Source: Streptomyces sp. NBC_01454 (lineage in GTDB: Bacteria > Actinomycetota > Actinomycetes > Streptomycetales > Streptomycetaceae). From it: a DNA stretch of 64,000 nucleotides. The DNA lies in contig NZ_CP109460.1 of the NCBI RefSeq assembly GCF_036227565.1, positions 620,001-684,000 of the forward strand, given 5' to 3'. This document shows positions 2,910 through 64,000 of this stretch, piece after piece. The position numbers and the translations under genes are program-made. The notes under the pieces were generated by a model that was not told the DNA's origin, did not search any database, and saw only the letters and a program-made list of their open reading frames with translations. The first letter of the stretch is position 1. Each line of letters starts with the position of its first letter.

Positions 2910-3319
2910 GACTGAATATCTGCCCTCTCGCGAGGCGGGCTGGTCAAAGCCTTACCGAGCTGCCCGACAAGCTGTTGCATACGGAAGGTGATCTCCGCCA
3001 TGTCGACATCGGGCGACGCCGAAACGGCGAGATACGCACCTTCACCGGCCGAGATGAGAAAGACCCAGCCATGGTCGAATTCCACCAGCGTCTGCCGCCA
3101 TTGCGGCCGGTTGGCGGCCGTCCCGCCATGGCAGAAGTCGGCAACCGTACGGCTCAGCGACTGCATTCCGCTCATTGCCGCGGCGACGGTATCGGCGTGA
3201 TCCCGGCCGACGTCCTTCGAGCGGGCCATGAGCAGACCGTCGGCGGAAACGAGAATGGCATGCTGCGCTTCGGGCAGTTCCAGAGCACTGTCAAGCATCC
3301 ACGACAGATCGTAGTTCAC
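2906..3319 (-). CDS. cvnB: CvnB, roadblock/LC7 protein
   Basis: 137 aa roadblock/LC7 domain protein, the usual size for CvnB. The region LPEAQHAILVSADGLLMARS (17-36) and the following GMQSLSRT helix match the fold that serves as a GTPase-binding or GAP-like partner of MglA-type G proteins. The GTG start at 3319 overlaps the cvnA stop by four bases, and the stop overlaps the cvnC start by four bases, so A-B-C are tightly coupled. It is probably a dimeric adaptor between CvnA and CvnD (family knowledge). Confidence 0.94.
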   Translation of the reverse strand: MNYDLSWMLDSALELPEAQHAILVSADGLLMARSKDVGRDHADTVAAAMSGMQSLSRTVADFCHGGTAANRPQWRQTLVEFDHGWVFLISAGEGAYLAVSASPDVDMAEITFRMQQLVGQLGKALTSPPRERADIQS

Positions 3320-40110: not shown

Positions 40111-40150
40111 GGCCGGTCCCCGGCGCCCTCCGCGGCGCCGGGGACCGGCC
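40111..40150 (+). terminator. Hairpin terminator after the muramidase
   Basis: GGCCGGTCCCCGGCGCC and GGCGCCGGGGACCGGCC form a perfect 17-bp stem with a 6-base loop, followed by TTTG. A strong terminator 20 bases past the stop. Confidence 0.93.
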
Positions 40151-60603: not shown

Positions 60604-61409
60604 CCTCAGCGATACGCCCCCGCCACGCCTATCTCGACCACCCCGCGCCGCTGCCCTTCGCCCACCGCGGCGGGGCGGCCGACGGACTGGAGAACACCGC
60701 CGCCGCCTTCCGGCGCGCGGTCGCCCTCGGCTACCGCTATCTGGAGACCGATGTGCACGCCACATCGGACGGACACCTCGTCGCCTTCCACGACGCCACC
60801 CTCGACCGCGTCACCGACTCCCGGGGCGCGATCGGGGCGCTCCCCTGGCAGGCGGTGCGCCGGGCCCGGATCGCCGGCCGGGAGCCGCTGCCGCTGTTCG
60901 AGGAGCTCCTGGCGGAGTTCCCCGACGCGCGCTGGAACGTCGACCTCAAGGCCGAGGCCGCGCTGGAGCCACTGCTCGAGCTGCTGCGCCGCACCCATGC
61001 CTGGGACCGGGTGTGCGTCGGCTCGTTCTCGGAGGCCCGGGTGGCACGGGCGCAGCGGCTGGCCGGCCGCCCGCTGGCGACCTCGCTGGGCACCCGTGGC
61101 GTGGCCGGCCTGCGGCTGCGCTCGTACGGCCGCGGCCGCCTGCCGCTGGACCGGCTGCTGGGCGCGGCGGTACGGCGCAGCGCGGTCTGCGTCCAGGTCC
61201 CCGAGCGGCAGTGGGGCATCCCGGTCGTCGATCCGCTGTTCCTGCGCGCCGCGCACGCCCTGGGCATGCAGGTCCACGTGTGGACGGTCAATGACGCGGA
61301 CCGGATGACCGCCCTGCTCGACCTGGGCGTGGATGGCATCATGACCGATCACATCGAGACGCTGCGGACGGTGCTGACCGAGCGGGGGTGCTGGCACCAG
61401 CAGCTCTAG
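60600..61409 (+). CDS. Glycerophosphodiester phosphodiesterase
   Basis: 269 aa. FAHRGGAADGLENTAAAFRR (catalytic HR and EN), ETDVHATSDGHLVAFHDATL and GVDGIMTDH show a complete GDPD domain. It hydrolyses glycerophosphodiesters to glycerol-3-phosphate. It overlaps the yczE gene by GTGA and is probably co-transcribed. Confidence 0.92.
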   Translation: MTSAIRPRHAYLDHPAPLPFAHRGGAADGLENTAAAFRRAVALGYRYLETDVHATSDGHLVAFHDATLDRVTDSRGAIGALPWQAVRRARIAGREPLPLFEELLAEFPDARWNVDLKAEAALEPLLELLRRTHAWDRVCVGSFSEARVARAQRLAGRPLATSLGTRGVAGLRLRSYGRGRLPLDRLLGAAVRRSAVCVQVPERQWGIPVVDPLFLRAAHALGMQVHVWTVNDADRMTALLDLGVDGIMTDHIETLRTVLTERGCWHQQL

Positions 61410-61534
61410 GGAAACGAGCAATTCCCGCCCTCTGAGAAGATGTCACATTCTCGCAGATCCACGCAGGATCGCGCGTCGAGTTGCCGTGATCATCTCCCAC
61501 TCGTCTCCCATCTCTCGCCTTGAGACATGAAAAA

Positions 61535-61585
61535 GCCGGCCCCGGGCCACCCACTTGGGAGGTGGGATGGCGACCCGGGGCCGGC
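61535..61585 (-). terminator. Minus-strand hairpin terminator, no gene above it
   Basis: GCCGGCCCCGGG and CCCGGGGCCGGC form a perfect 12-bp stem, nested with CCACCC/GGTGGG, followed on the minus strand by TTTTT. No minus-strand gene between 61590 and 61820 could be supported; the gene that it served may be lost or the element ends here. The region 61410-61822 otherwise holds only the dyad at 61749. Confidence 0.75.
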
Positions 61586-61748
61586 GATGGGCCCGCCCCT
61601 CAACGCCGTCGGCGGAAGGGGACGGAAGCGTGCGGCAGTCATCGACGCCAGGTGGACACCAACGGGCGTGGGCGGCACTGAAGGCCGACTGGCACGTCAG
61701 GACCAATGAGCACACACACTGCTGGCACTGATTGTAGACGGCAGCCAC

Positions 61749-61762
61749 CTTGATATATCAAG
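61749..61762. promoter_or_regulatory. Perfect palindrome upstream of the GntR gene
   Basis: CTTGATATATCAAG, a 14-bp perfect palindrome, AT-rich in a GC-rich genome, 61 bases before the GntR start. It is the typical size for a GntR/HutC autoregulatory operator. Confidence 0.75.
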
Positions 61763-61822
61763 TGGACGGGGCGATTCCTACCCTGGCGATCTCGCCCAAC
61801 ACGTGATCGCTAAGGGGCTCCG

Positions 61823-62428
61823 ATGGAGGCTGCGCACCGACGCGTTGCAGCCGACCTCGCAGAGCAGATCACCGCCGGCCTCTGGACACCTGGCGACCAA
61901 CTCCCCTCCCGGGCCGCGTTAGCCCGCCACTACGGGGTTCACGAGCAGACCGTGCGATTGGCGATGGTCCTCCTCCGATCGCGTGGACTGATCGAGGGGG
62001 AGCAGCGAAACCGGCTCCGGGTGGCGCATCCTCCAGTCATGCGCGCCCTCATTCGCCCCGATGTCGACTGGCCGCACGATGTCGAGGTCGCCGATAGCAG
62101 CCCCTGTCGCGCCACGGACGAACTCGCCGAGCGCCTCGACGTCGAGCCGGGCACCGCGCTGCAGCGGCAGGTCGTCGAATGCCTTGACCCGGGCGGTCGA
62201 TCAGCCATGCTCGTCACCACCTGGTGGCCCGGCCGACGCAGGCCGCACCACGACTACGTCGCCGAGCTCGACGTCATCGCACTCGACGCCGACCAGGCAC
62301 ACGCGCTCGGACTAACCGTCGACACCGCCGCCTACAGACTGCTCCGCACCCGCATTGACACAGCCGGACGCCCGGTCGAGACCGCGGATCTCATCCTGCC
62401 GATGGACCGCTGGACGATCCGGCTCTAA
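61823..62428 (+). CDS. GntR/HutC-type regulator (UTRA domain) of the element
   Basis: 201 aa. GntR HTH at 6-68 (HRRVAADLAEQITAGLWTPG, ALARHYGVHEQTVRLAMVLL), then a UTRA domain (ELAERLDVEPGTALQRQVVE, TTWWPG). Similar to KorSA-type control proteins of actinomycete integrative elements. Codon 33 is TTA, so translation is bldA-dependent. The gene lacks neighbours that would suggest a metabolic role. Confidence 0.9.
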   Translation: MEAAHRRVAADLAEQITAGLWTPGDQLPSRAALARHYGVHEQTVRLAMVLLRSRGLIEGEQRNRLRVAHPPVMRALIRPDVDWPHDVEVADSSPCRATDELAERLDVEPGTALQRQVVECLDPGGRSAMLVTTWWPGRRRPHHDYVAELDVIALDADQAHALGLTVDTAAYRLLRTRIDTAGRPVETADLILPMDRWTIRL

Positions 62429-62575
62429 CGCGCCAGCGCCCCGCTCCGGGCGCTGTTCCGGGGCGGGGCGGGGAGTGCAGCGCTACCAGCATGAGCGCAC
62501 ACAGTGAATGTGATCCTTCAACGATACGGCTGGCCACTGACAATCTCGGGGCACTCCGGGGCTAGACTCGAACAC

Positions 62576-62902
62576 ATGAGCGAGTTGCCGCCGGATCTGC
62601 CCCGCCTCCGCACCCTGGAGACCTGGCTGCAGCTCGCCCTCGACCAGATCCGGCAGGCCATCACCGTTGCCGAGCAGCGGGAAGCCCAGCAGCAGCGGGC
62701 CGTCCCACCCCCGCCCCCGGACTGGGTAGTCCAGCTCAGCATCGGCGCCGACGCCCACCCCGTCGCAGTACACATCGGCGGATGCGGAACCGCCGGGCAG
62801 CGTGCCCGGCCCATCAGCCGCGAGCAGGCGATCCGTGCGCTCACGGACGGACTGGAGGCCTGCGGGCTCTGCCGCCCGGACACGGAACTCGGCATCCTCT
62901 GA
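62576..62902 (+). CDS. DUF6233-like small protein
   Basis: 108 aa. RLRTLETWLQLALDQIRQAI, then VAEQREAQQQRAVPPPPPDW and CGLCRPDTELGIL, match the DUF6233 family of Streptomyces, often seen near mobile elements. Start ATG 62576; function unknown. Confidence 0.8.
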   Translation: MSELPPDLPRLRTLETWLQLALDQIRQAITVAEQREAQQQRAVPPPPPDWVVQLSIGADAHPVAVHIGGCGTAGQRARPISREQAIRALTDGLEACGLCRPDTELGIL

Positions 62903-62936
62903 TGCGCCCCGCGGCATGACGAAGCAGGCTGGAGGG

Positions 62937-63152
62937 ATGCGGGACCACGCCCCGATCGTCGTACACCCGGTGTCCGCCACCGGCGGCCGGCGAGTCACCG
63001 TGCGCGGGCAGATCCTCGGGCTCGCCTACGACGACCTCGACCTCGTCGAATTCCTGCGGCGGGCCGGTGTCGATGAACCCGAGGCCATCCTTGACGATCC
63101 GACGTGGGTCGAATGGCGCGGCGGGATGCCGCACGACTGGGGCGACACCTGA
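62937..63152 (+). CDS. Small protein, paralogue of 8898-9107
   Basis: 71 aa, the same family as the protein at 8898: IVVHPVSATGGRRVTVRGQ, then LVEFLRRAGVDEPEAI and WVEWRGG. The two share the start region and the ending, but not all of the middle. A start at 62916 is also possible. It lies between the DUF6233 gene and the recombinase. Confidence 0.7.
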   Translation: MRDHAPIVVHPVSATGGRRVTVRGQILGLAYDDLDLVEFLRRAGVDEPEAILDDPTWVEWRGGMPHDWGDT

Positions 63153-63160
63153 CAACAGAA

Positions 63161-63194
63161 GGCCCCGCAGCGACGGGGGATGCGCGGCGGGGCC
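63161..63194 (+). terminator. Hairpin terminator after the small protein
   Basis: GGCCCCGC and GCGGGGCC pair perfectly, loop of 18 bases with an inner GC-rich region. It also separates the convergent recombinase gene. Confidence 0.65.
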
Positions 63195-63222
63195 CGGGAA
63201 CAGTGTGGCAGGTGGCGGGCCG

Positions 63223-63822
63223 CTAGGTGGCGAACGCGGATTCCAGCACGGCCGCGATCCCCTCGTCGTAGCCGTCGCGCACCGGCACCAAATCCTTGCG
63301 GGAAGCAGACTTCGTGATGCCGAAGTACGCCTCCAGGTGCTGCACTGGCGCCCCGTCCTCCAATACGGCGCCCATCGCCGAGCGGCGGAGGTCGTGCGCG
63401 CGGACATCCAGCTCGGCAGCACGCATCGCCGCAGCGAACAGCGTCACACGCTTGACGCCCTGCAAGCCGACCAGCAGTGGCTCGCCCGGATCGGCGTCCT
63501 GCCCTTCGAGGTAGGCATCGACGGCAGCCGCCGCGGACGGGGCGATGCGGATGATCCGCGGGTGGCGCACGCCATCAACGTGTAGTCGCCGCTCCCCCAG
63601 CACGTAGTCCCGCACCCGCAACTCTGAGACCTCCTGTGGACGGAGGCCGGCCAGCAGCATCAGCGCGGCGCTGGCGTGCACCAGCGGATCGTCGCGGGTG
63701 GCGGCCAGAACAGCCCGGCCTTCGGCGCTGGTGAGGGTCGGCCACTGAAGGAGCGGCGGCGATCCCTTCCGGTCCACCCACGCCTGTGCCACCTCGCGGC
63801 TCTCGAACTGCGCACCTCGCAT
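63223..63822 (-). CDS. Short, divergent tyrosine recombinase
   Basis: 199 aa from ATG 63822 (GGGAGGAGCG upstream). Catalytic residues are recognisable: Arg61 in LAGLRPQEVSEL, His143/Arg146 in AHDLRRSA, Tyr185 in VRDGYDEG. The second His/Trp of the catalytic set appears to be Ile (YFGITKS). The N-terminal SAM-like core-binding domain is absent or very short, so this is a minimal or degenerate integrase. A 13-9-13 dyad lies 130 bases upstream. Confidence 0.8.
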   Translation of the reverse strand: MRGAQFESREVAQAWVDRKGSPPLLQWPTLTSAEGRAVLAATRDDPLVHASAALMLLAGLRPQEVSELRVRDYVLGERRLHVDGVRHPRIIRIAPSAAAAVDAYLEGQDADPGEPLLVGLQGVKRVTLFAAAMRAAELDVRAHDLRRSAMGAVLEDGAPVQHLEAYFGITKSASRKDLVPVRDGYDEGIAAVLESAFAT

Positions 63823-63951
63823 GACGCTCCTCCCGCCGGTGTGTGGCCACATCATCCCGCGCCGACCGCCGGTACGGGGGCGGAACAGTGGAGCGCCCCG
63901 GTCTCTCCAGCCGGGGATGCGGGCACCTCCTCGCCGCGCTCCAAGTCGGGA

Positions 63952-63986
63952 GGTAGCGCATAACGTCCTATGGGTTATGCGCTACC
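63952..63986. other. Perfect 13-9-13 dyad, candidate recombination core site
   Basis: GGTAGCGCATAAC, a 9-base spacer GTCCTATGG, then GTTATGCGCTACC. The arms are perfect inverted repeats and carry GCGCATAA and TTATG, words seen in Xer (dif) arms; the layout resembles 13-8-13 loxP-type sites, although the spacer is longer than a standard dif spacer. It lies 130 bases from the recombinase start. A terminator is unlikely (no run of T). Confidence 0.65.
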
Positions 63987-64000
63987 ACATCCCGCCCCCG

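Follow-up and report, generated by a model that had tools for sequence, protein, structure and literature searches.

In single-recombinase Xer/dif systems such as XerS-difSL and XerH-difH, the recombination site lies beside the recombinase gene. The loxP site of phage P1 has an overlap of 8 bp, and lambdoid phages carry boundary sequences at the joints between their modules. We describe a family of short dyads that shares features with each of these systems. As in Xer/dif, the inverted arms end in ATAA and TTAT around a 6-7-bp centre (in E. coli, the XerC arm has GCGCATAA as its core), there is one copy per replicon, and a recombinase gene lies beside the site, within 50 bp in Kribbella. Unlike dif, the sites are found mostly in integrating phages, they form a perfect palindrome next to one recombinase family (family b), and the same site adjoins several unrelated recombinase families as well as serine resolvases. 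The resemblance to Cre/loxP lies in a phage-borne site with inverted arms, present once per phage and near a Cre-class recombinase gene, but the overlap is 7 bp (6 in Kribbella, 11 in the copy described below) and the right arm drifts. The attP core of tyrosine integrases is likewise a short armed core next to a recombinase, between the lysis genes and the int region, whereas our site is intact in integrated prophages, one of which has separate att repeats. Lambdoid boundary sequences are also short conserved blocks with unrelated modules on each side, but the site described here is linked to recombinase genes and is also present outside phages. As judged from sequence, it would be a recombination site of the Xer/Cre type that is associated with exchangeable recombinase modules. 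A literature search of titles and the beginnings of abstracts returned no paper on the site, which does not prove that none exists.

The window is the whole stretch of DNA that we analyzed, 64,000 nucleotides corresponding to positions 620001-684000 of the chromosome of its own genome, a Streptomyces. A sequence-only reading had reported a perfect 13-9-13 dyad near its right edge, and we found GGTAGCGCATAAC-GTCCTATGG-GTTATGCGCTACC at 63952-63986 with zero mismatches. The arms occupy 63952-63964 and 63974-63986 and the centre 63965-63973; no strand is assigned. Within these arms lie the shorter arms typical of the family, TAGCGCATAA and TTATGCGCTA (63954-63963 and 63975-63984), which enclose an 11-bp centre, CGTCCTATGGG. 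A census of perfect dyads in the window (arms of at least 11 bp, loops of 3-14) found 12 separate cases. The dyad at 63952-63986 has the second-longest arms (13 bp; the longest are 17 bp) and is the sole case with arms below 60% G+C, composition being judged by eye. The longest dyad, at 40111-40150, has G+C-rich 17-bp arms and a 6-bp loop and looks like a terminator.

The dyad is single-copy in the 9.46-Mb genome, and a search of that genome for its half-site with at most one mismatch returned just the two arms of the dyad itself. The genome thus has no second copy beyond the right edge of the window, where the sequence-only reading had proposed to look for one. Scans of GTDB contigs and IMG/VR with near-full-length arms gave 0 matches to the window dyad. 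A 40-base site query found no record in PLSDB and two chance-like records in INPHARED, both weak tests for a 17-mer, and blastn of the dyad region against plasmids returned eight weak records.

The dyad lies inside an 84,067-bp prophage, in line with the plasmid or prophage origin that the sequence-only reading had proposed. The prophage is delimited by a 49-bp direct repeat. Its left copy, attL (61346-61394, no strand), is in the 3' end of a GDPD-family gene, and its right copy is at chromosome positions 765413-765461, the prophage running on past the right edge of the window. The left end of the prophage (61395-64000, no strand) contains a GntR-type regulator (61823-62428), a DUF6233 protein (62504-62902), a minimal recombinase and the dyad, which is intact and 2.6 kb from attL. 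The 3' end of an endonuclease VII-like gene on the minus strand occupies 63982-64000; this gene extends to chromosome position 684545, and its TAG stop codon (63982-63984) sits in a dyad arm. Phage genes to the right of the window include the endonuclease VII-like gene, a 339-aa tyrosine recombinase, a repressor-like regulator, an endolysin and a tape-measure protein. Next to the right copy of the 49-bp repeat is an integrase-like gene of 429 aa (L022:12066-13355); it matches Phage_int_SAM_3 only, with no match to PF00589, and we judged its C-terminal motifs by eye. Right of the window, the prophage also contains a frame that by eye resembles a Phd/YefM antitoxin, behind the perfect palindrome ATACCTTAAGGACCTTAAGGTAT (L002:10462-10790). 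The genome encodes a XerC/XerD-like frame of 338 aa that scores 124.5 and 119.2 bits, below the curated cut-offs of 335.15 and 329.6.

Relatives of the dyad form a recognizable site family in phages. Only one viral locus was found with a close relative (77%) of the minimal recombinase, L091, and it carries CTAGCGCATAA-GGGAACG-TTATGCGCTAG 540 bp away. With gaps of 0-24 allowed, both perfect 10-bp arms occur on 18 IMG/VR contigs, and in all 18 the gap is 7. The centre is CGTTCCC on either strand in 16 of them, CGTTTCC in L162 and unrelated in L163. The two-arm scan of GTDB contigs gave 38 matches with gaps from 0 to 24, and the five in Streptomyces or Kitasatospora all have CGTTCCC and a gap of 7 (three are the same elements as IMG/VR entries). 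Searching with AGCGCATAACGTTCCC, which omits the right arm, found 62 IMG/VR contigs with one copy in each, and 13 copies in 12 of 392 genomes of the same genus. The left arm and the centre do not change between sites; the right arm is variable (TGAAGCGCTG, TTAAGTCCTG and other forms), and the sequences on either side of the site are unrelated. Minor centres beginning with CGTC occur in L300, L312, L313, L317 and L325.

The nearest positional relative of the window copy is L340, in which a serine resolvase (Pfam), an endonuclease VII-like gene (63%) and CAGCGCATAA-CGTCTGG follow the same order as in the window. In both loci, a TAG stop codon lies in the variable arm. By comparison with L340, we read the window centre as CGTC-TGG into which CTA has been inserted, accompanied by a new and perfectly mirrored second arm. 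The window copy has a gap of 11 between the family arms, or 9 between its own longer arms, outside the 6-8-bp range of overlaps. This 11-bp centre has no twin in the scans made, and the window copy may therefore be dead or retuned; the centre suggests a diverged or impaired member of the family.

The genome G367 is the only one with two copies of the site, and there the whole prophage is repeated in tandem. The tandem array lies at about 19000-199000 of G367:C111 with a period of 89,881 bp (L292, L278, L275, L276, L289-L291, L277). Both prophage copies carry the site together with a serine resolvase in place of a tyrosine recombinase. The sequence-only reading had said that it would be refuted if no genome had two copies flanking a mobile unit. 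The window's own genome has one copy; G367 does have two, but they come from the repeat of an entire prophage.

We asked which genes accompany the site, scoring recombinases with a profile built from nine tyrosine recombinases (three from site loci) and with one serine resolvase as query. We recovered 73 non-redundant sites. On the side of the right arm, a recombinase was present within 2.5 kb at all 48 sites with at least 2.5 kb of sequence there. On the left side, the figure was 1 of 37 sites with enough sequence. Including shorter right-side sequences that already showed a recombinase, 60 of 60 sites had one (50 tyrosine, 10 serine); the 13 further sites had too little sequence and gave no match. 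One locus, L165, has its recombinase on the left instead, with 1.4 kb available on the right. The recombinase side is thus constant, and the window copy obeys the same rule. In phages, the distance from the site to a Cre-class recombinase gene is about 0.4-1.9 kb, often with a small gene between. The genes beside the site are recombinases, which is not the outcome that the sequence-only reading had named as telling against it (a regulatory site found only upstream of unrelated genes), but a regulatory role keeps some probability. The arms end in ATAA and TTAT, in keeping with the comparison of the arms to Xer half-sites in that reading, and dyads of this kind are strongly linked to site-specific recombinase genes.

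As a control, we took dyads from other taxa that share these arms by chance. Of 30 such cases, one (L202) had a recombinase within 2.5 kb to the left or right, compared with 3 of 3 Kribbella and 4 of 5 Streptomyces or Kitasatospora dyads from the same scan (sequence was cut in the fifth, L203). The dyad in L202, at position 3039 in the Firmicute Inconstantimicrobium porci, is TAGCGCATAA-N6-TTATGCGCTA, and a frame for a tyrosine recombinase lies 0.8 kb from it. This dyad may be a chance match or a further relative of the site family.

The Kribbella dyads associate with a recombinase independently of phages. They are single-copy in all three genomes, even with three mismatches allowed. Homologues of the Kribbella Xer-like recombinase were found in 37 of 210 genomes of its order, 12 of them close (79-100%). 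Eleven of these 12 are accompanied by [T/G]AGCGCATAA-TCCCCG-TTATGCGCTA, with a gap of 6 and varying flanks, and in all 11 the dyad ends 11 bp before the likely start codon of the recombinase. The twelfth (L358) has neither the N-terminal part of the protein nor the dyad. The other 25 genomes have distant homologues, and none of the 18 loci obtained from them contains the same core. A different dyad, TACCCTCATAA-TCCCAC-TTATGTGGGTA, precedes the start of one of these distant homologues (L365) by 10 bp; dyads as strong as this one and below 60% G+C occur three times in 68 kb of distant-homologue loci. Over 323 aa, the Kribbella recombinase shares 38% identity with phage family b. It aligns over its length with the XerC, XerD and XerA models, below their cut-offs, and matches the solved chains of XerA, XerD and Cre.

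The second arm differs in quality among the recombinase families beside it. Family b keeps it best, with 14 of 17 arms perfect and a mean of 9.7 of 10 positions. The means are 7.3 for family a (n = 23), 6.6 for family c (n = 8), 6.5 for serine resolvases (n = 10) and 6.8 for other tyrosine recombinases (n = 5). This difference gave a Mann-Whitney p of 3.5e-8, a statistic that ignores relatedness and depends on family labels that we assigned from the recombinase searches. The Kribbella association and the preservation of the second arm next to family b are our strongest reasons for calling the dyad a recombinase core site.

Two recombinases flank the window copy. The nearer is a tyrosine recombinase of 210 aa (63223-63855, minus strand) that consists of the catalytic domain only. 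Its Pfam Phage_integrase match is confined to residues 43-179, which leaves too little sequence for the usual N-terminal core-binding domain, as the sequence-only reading had noticed. That reading had also seen isoleucine in place of the second His/Trp. Tyrosine recombinases usually have His or Trp at the position aligned with residue 180, and this position is indeed Ile in three of four aligned homologues and Leu in the other. The protein belongs to a streptomycete family of 33 short proteins, itself included (P0001-P0033), of about 175-210 aa; an 89% homologue is present in Streptomyces sp. NBC_01456. In 29 aligned members, inspected by eye, two arginines are invariant and the tyrosine is kept in all but one, which has Phe. 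The first histidine is not strict, the usual lysine was not seen, and the second histidine is replaced, mostly by a hydrophobic residue. Because the family lacks the lysine and the second histidine, the minimal recombinase is probably weak or inactive, and perhaps the family has an accessory role. Minimal-type matches occur in two of the searched site loci (L169 and L215). Together with the missing residues, this speaks against the original pairing of the dyad with the minimal recombinase. A tblastn search of INPHARED with the minimal recombinase found none, and a further sample gave matches in 3 of 296 genomes at E<=1e-20, none of them new. In G174, we rejected as a site the dyad that lies upstream of the minimal recombinase (L010:1269-1300); it is inside a coding frame and its arms are unrelated. 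A G+C-rich hairpin at 63160-63197 of the window has a loop like GACGGGGGATG or its complement and recurs near recombinase genes (L028, L039, L054, L065, L072, L079 and L085). This hairpin may be a terminator that these phages share, or a separate element.

The second is the complete tyrosine recombinase of 339 aa, encoded on the minus strand just outside the window (chromosome 684512-685528, G000:C1), about 525 bp beyond the dyad. Read by eye, it has R, K, HxxR and H, and its C-terminal part aligns. It is likely that this enzyme, and not the minimal one, is the local partner of the window dyad. IMG/VR contains 63 distinct loci of the 339-aa recombinase, which we scanned for the site on both sides. 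The motif TAGCGCATAACGTTCCC with up to three mismatches is present in 19 of these loci and the reversed motif in 0 of 63; the 17-mer is absent from the other 44. Dyads within 1.2 kb downstream of the recombinase in 60 of the 63 loci are, save for chance cases, G+C-rich hairpins and were rejected as the site. A different element, E1 (CTCTCGATAACATGCCATATCGCGGGCG with small changes), is found in 53 of the 63 loci (among L028-L090) and in the window's own prophage. There it lies at L002:10394-10411; E1 is single-copy, often followed by AAAAAACGGTACAAT, and 0.1-2 kb upstream of the 339-aa recombinase. E1 may be the own site or operator of the 339-aa recombinase, in which case this recombinase need not be the partner of the dyad. 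Streptomyces phage ZL12, which has a distant relative of the 339-aa recombinase, contains no GCGCATAA in bases 1-83900, all but the last 6.5 kb of its genome.

We give about even odds that the dyad belongs, as a diverged member, to a family of tyrosine-recombinase core sites with a function like that of dif or lox. Binding, cleavage, resolution and the identity of the acting enzyme are the parts of this model that we infer. The family core site would consist of two inverted 10-bp arms around a 6-7-bp overlap. Dimers of simple Xer/Cre-class recombinases would bind the arms, and strands would be exchanged across the overlap between two copies. Such a reaction could resolve multimers, circularise redundant phage genomes or join DNA of different phages, and a resolution-site function for the dyad is plausible. 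In the prophage of the window, the 339-aa recombinase would be the likely acting enzyme. The window copy itself is probably impaired or retuned, because its four extra centre bases should prevent pairing with normal sites. The invariance of the centre fits the need for identical overlaps in strand exchange. The recombinase module is not the integration system, because the prophages of G227 and G367 carry the site plus a separate Pfam-supported integrase; an integrase-like frame at the left end of the G374 prophage has no Pfam match and was therefore not counted. Several observations count against the core-site model. Serine resolvases, which are unable to use a tyrosine-recombinase site, adjoin 10 of the 60 sites; the modules would then each act at sites other than this one, or the constant arm would be recognized by an additional factor. 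The 17-mer is missing from 44 of the 63 loci of the 339-aa recombinase, the 11-bp centre of the window copy is unmatched, and the tandem prophage of G367 keeps two direct copies of the site.

The strongest alternative is that the dyad is an operator through which a regulator, or the recombinase acting as its own regulator, controls the recombinase gene or module. We consider this rather unlikely. The exact spacing of 11 bp between dyad and start codon in Kribbella would also suit an operator, some phage sites lie just upstream of promoter-like sequence (e.g. TTGACC, element E1), and divergent genes flank 20 of the 73 sites. However, 10 of the 73 lie between convergent genes, others just past the stop codon of the recombinase, and the position in phages is not constant, with no single relation to a promoter. 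An operator also does not account for central bases that are invariant while one arm drifts. The remaining sites are between tandem genes (28), overlap a predicted frame (7) or are incomplete (8), and such mixed orientations are easier to reconcile with a DNA site than with a promoter or a terminator.

A bolder version of the core-site model, which we find unlikely, makes the site a shared recombination currency of temperate Streptomyces phages. Unrelated tyrosine and serine resolvase modules would dock there, a common or host factor would read the invariant left arm and centre, and the variable right arm would travel with the module. Phages could then swap resolution modules site-specifically, and the window copy would be a drifted member with a perfect palindrome and an 11-bp centre.

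It is also conceivable, and in our judgment quite improbable, that the dyad is only a module joint, a short conserved border where ordinary recombination between short homologies swaps phage modules with no dedicated enzyme. We compared flanks in 2775 of 2926 pairs of site loci, dropping short flanks. Four pairs share both flanks, all repeat entries of one phage, while 19 share the right flank only and 11 the left only. In the 23 of 30 one-sided pairs that we aligned, homology starts or stops at the site. Element E1 gave the same pattern as a control (1378 pairs: 1 both flanks, 25 right, 4 left). These breakpoints are what a module joint would produce, and because E1 behaves alike, they are no proof of site-specific exchange at the dyad. 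A module joint leaves unexplained both the constant recombinase side and the dyad beside a recombinase in Kribbella chromosomes.

A transcription terminator is highly improbable. The RNA hairpin behind the endonuclease VII-like gene would have a stem of 13 perfect pairs, with the stop codon of that gene in the arm. We rejected an intrinsic terminator because no T run follows the dyad on either strand and because, in the relatives, the right arm drifts from pairing against a fixed left arm (43 of 63 scored right arms are imperfect). In addition, nothing ends between the divergent genes at 20 of 73 sites, and other hairpins of these phages are G+C-rich. The idea that the dyad serves for integration, as an attachment site used by the prophage or by some other integrating element, has its distance of only 2.6 kb from attL and a nearby recombinase in its favour and is barely credible, since the dyad is single, internal and intact in an integrated prophage that ends in its own 49-bp repeats with an integrase-like gene at the far end, has no second copy in its genome, and belongs to a family whose members in G227 and G367 coexist with separate integrases; it is not attL, attR or attP.

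The site is precisely defined and comes with candidate enzymes, phage family b and its Kribbella counterpart, and is thus a possible new orthogonal recombination tool. It is strange, and asks for an explanation, that tyrosine and serine recombinases replace each other next to a single constant site. With the site and its neighbours in hand, multimer resolution and module exchange in large Streptomyces prophages become testable.
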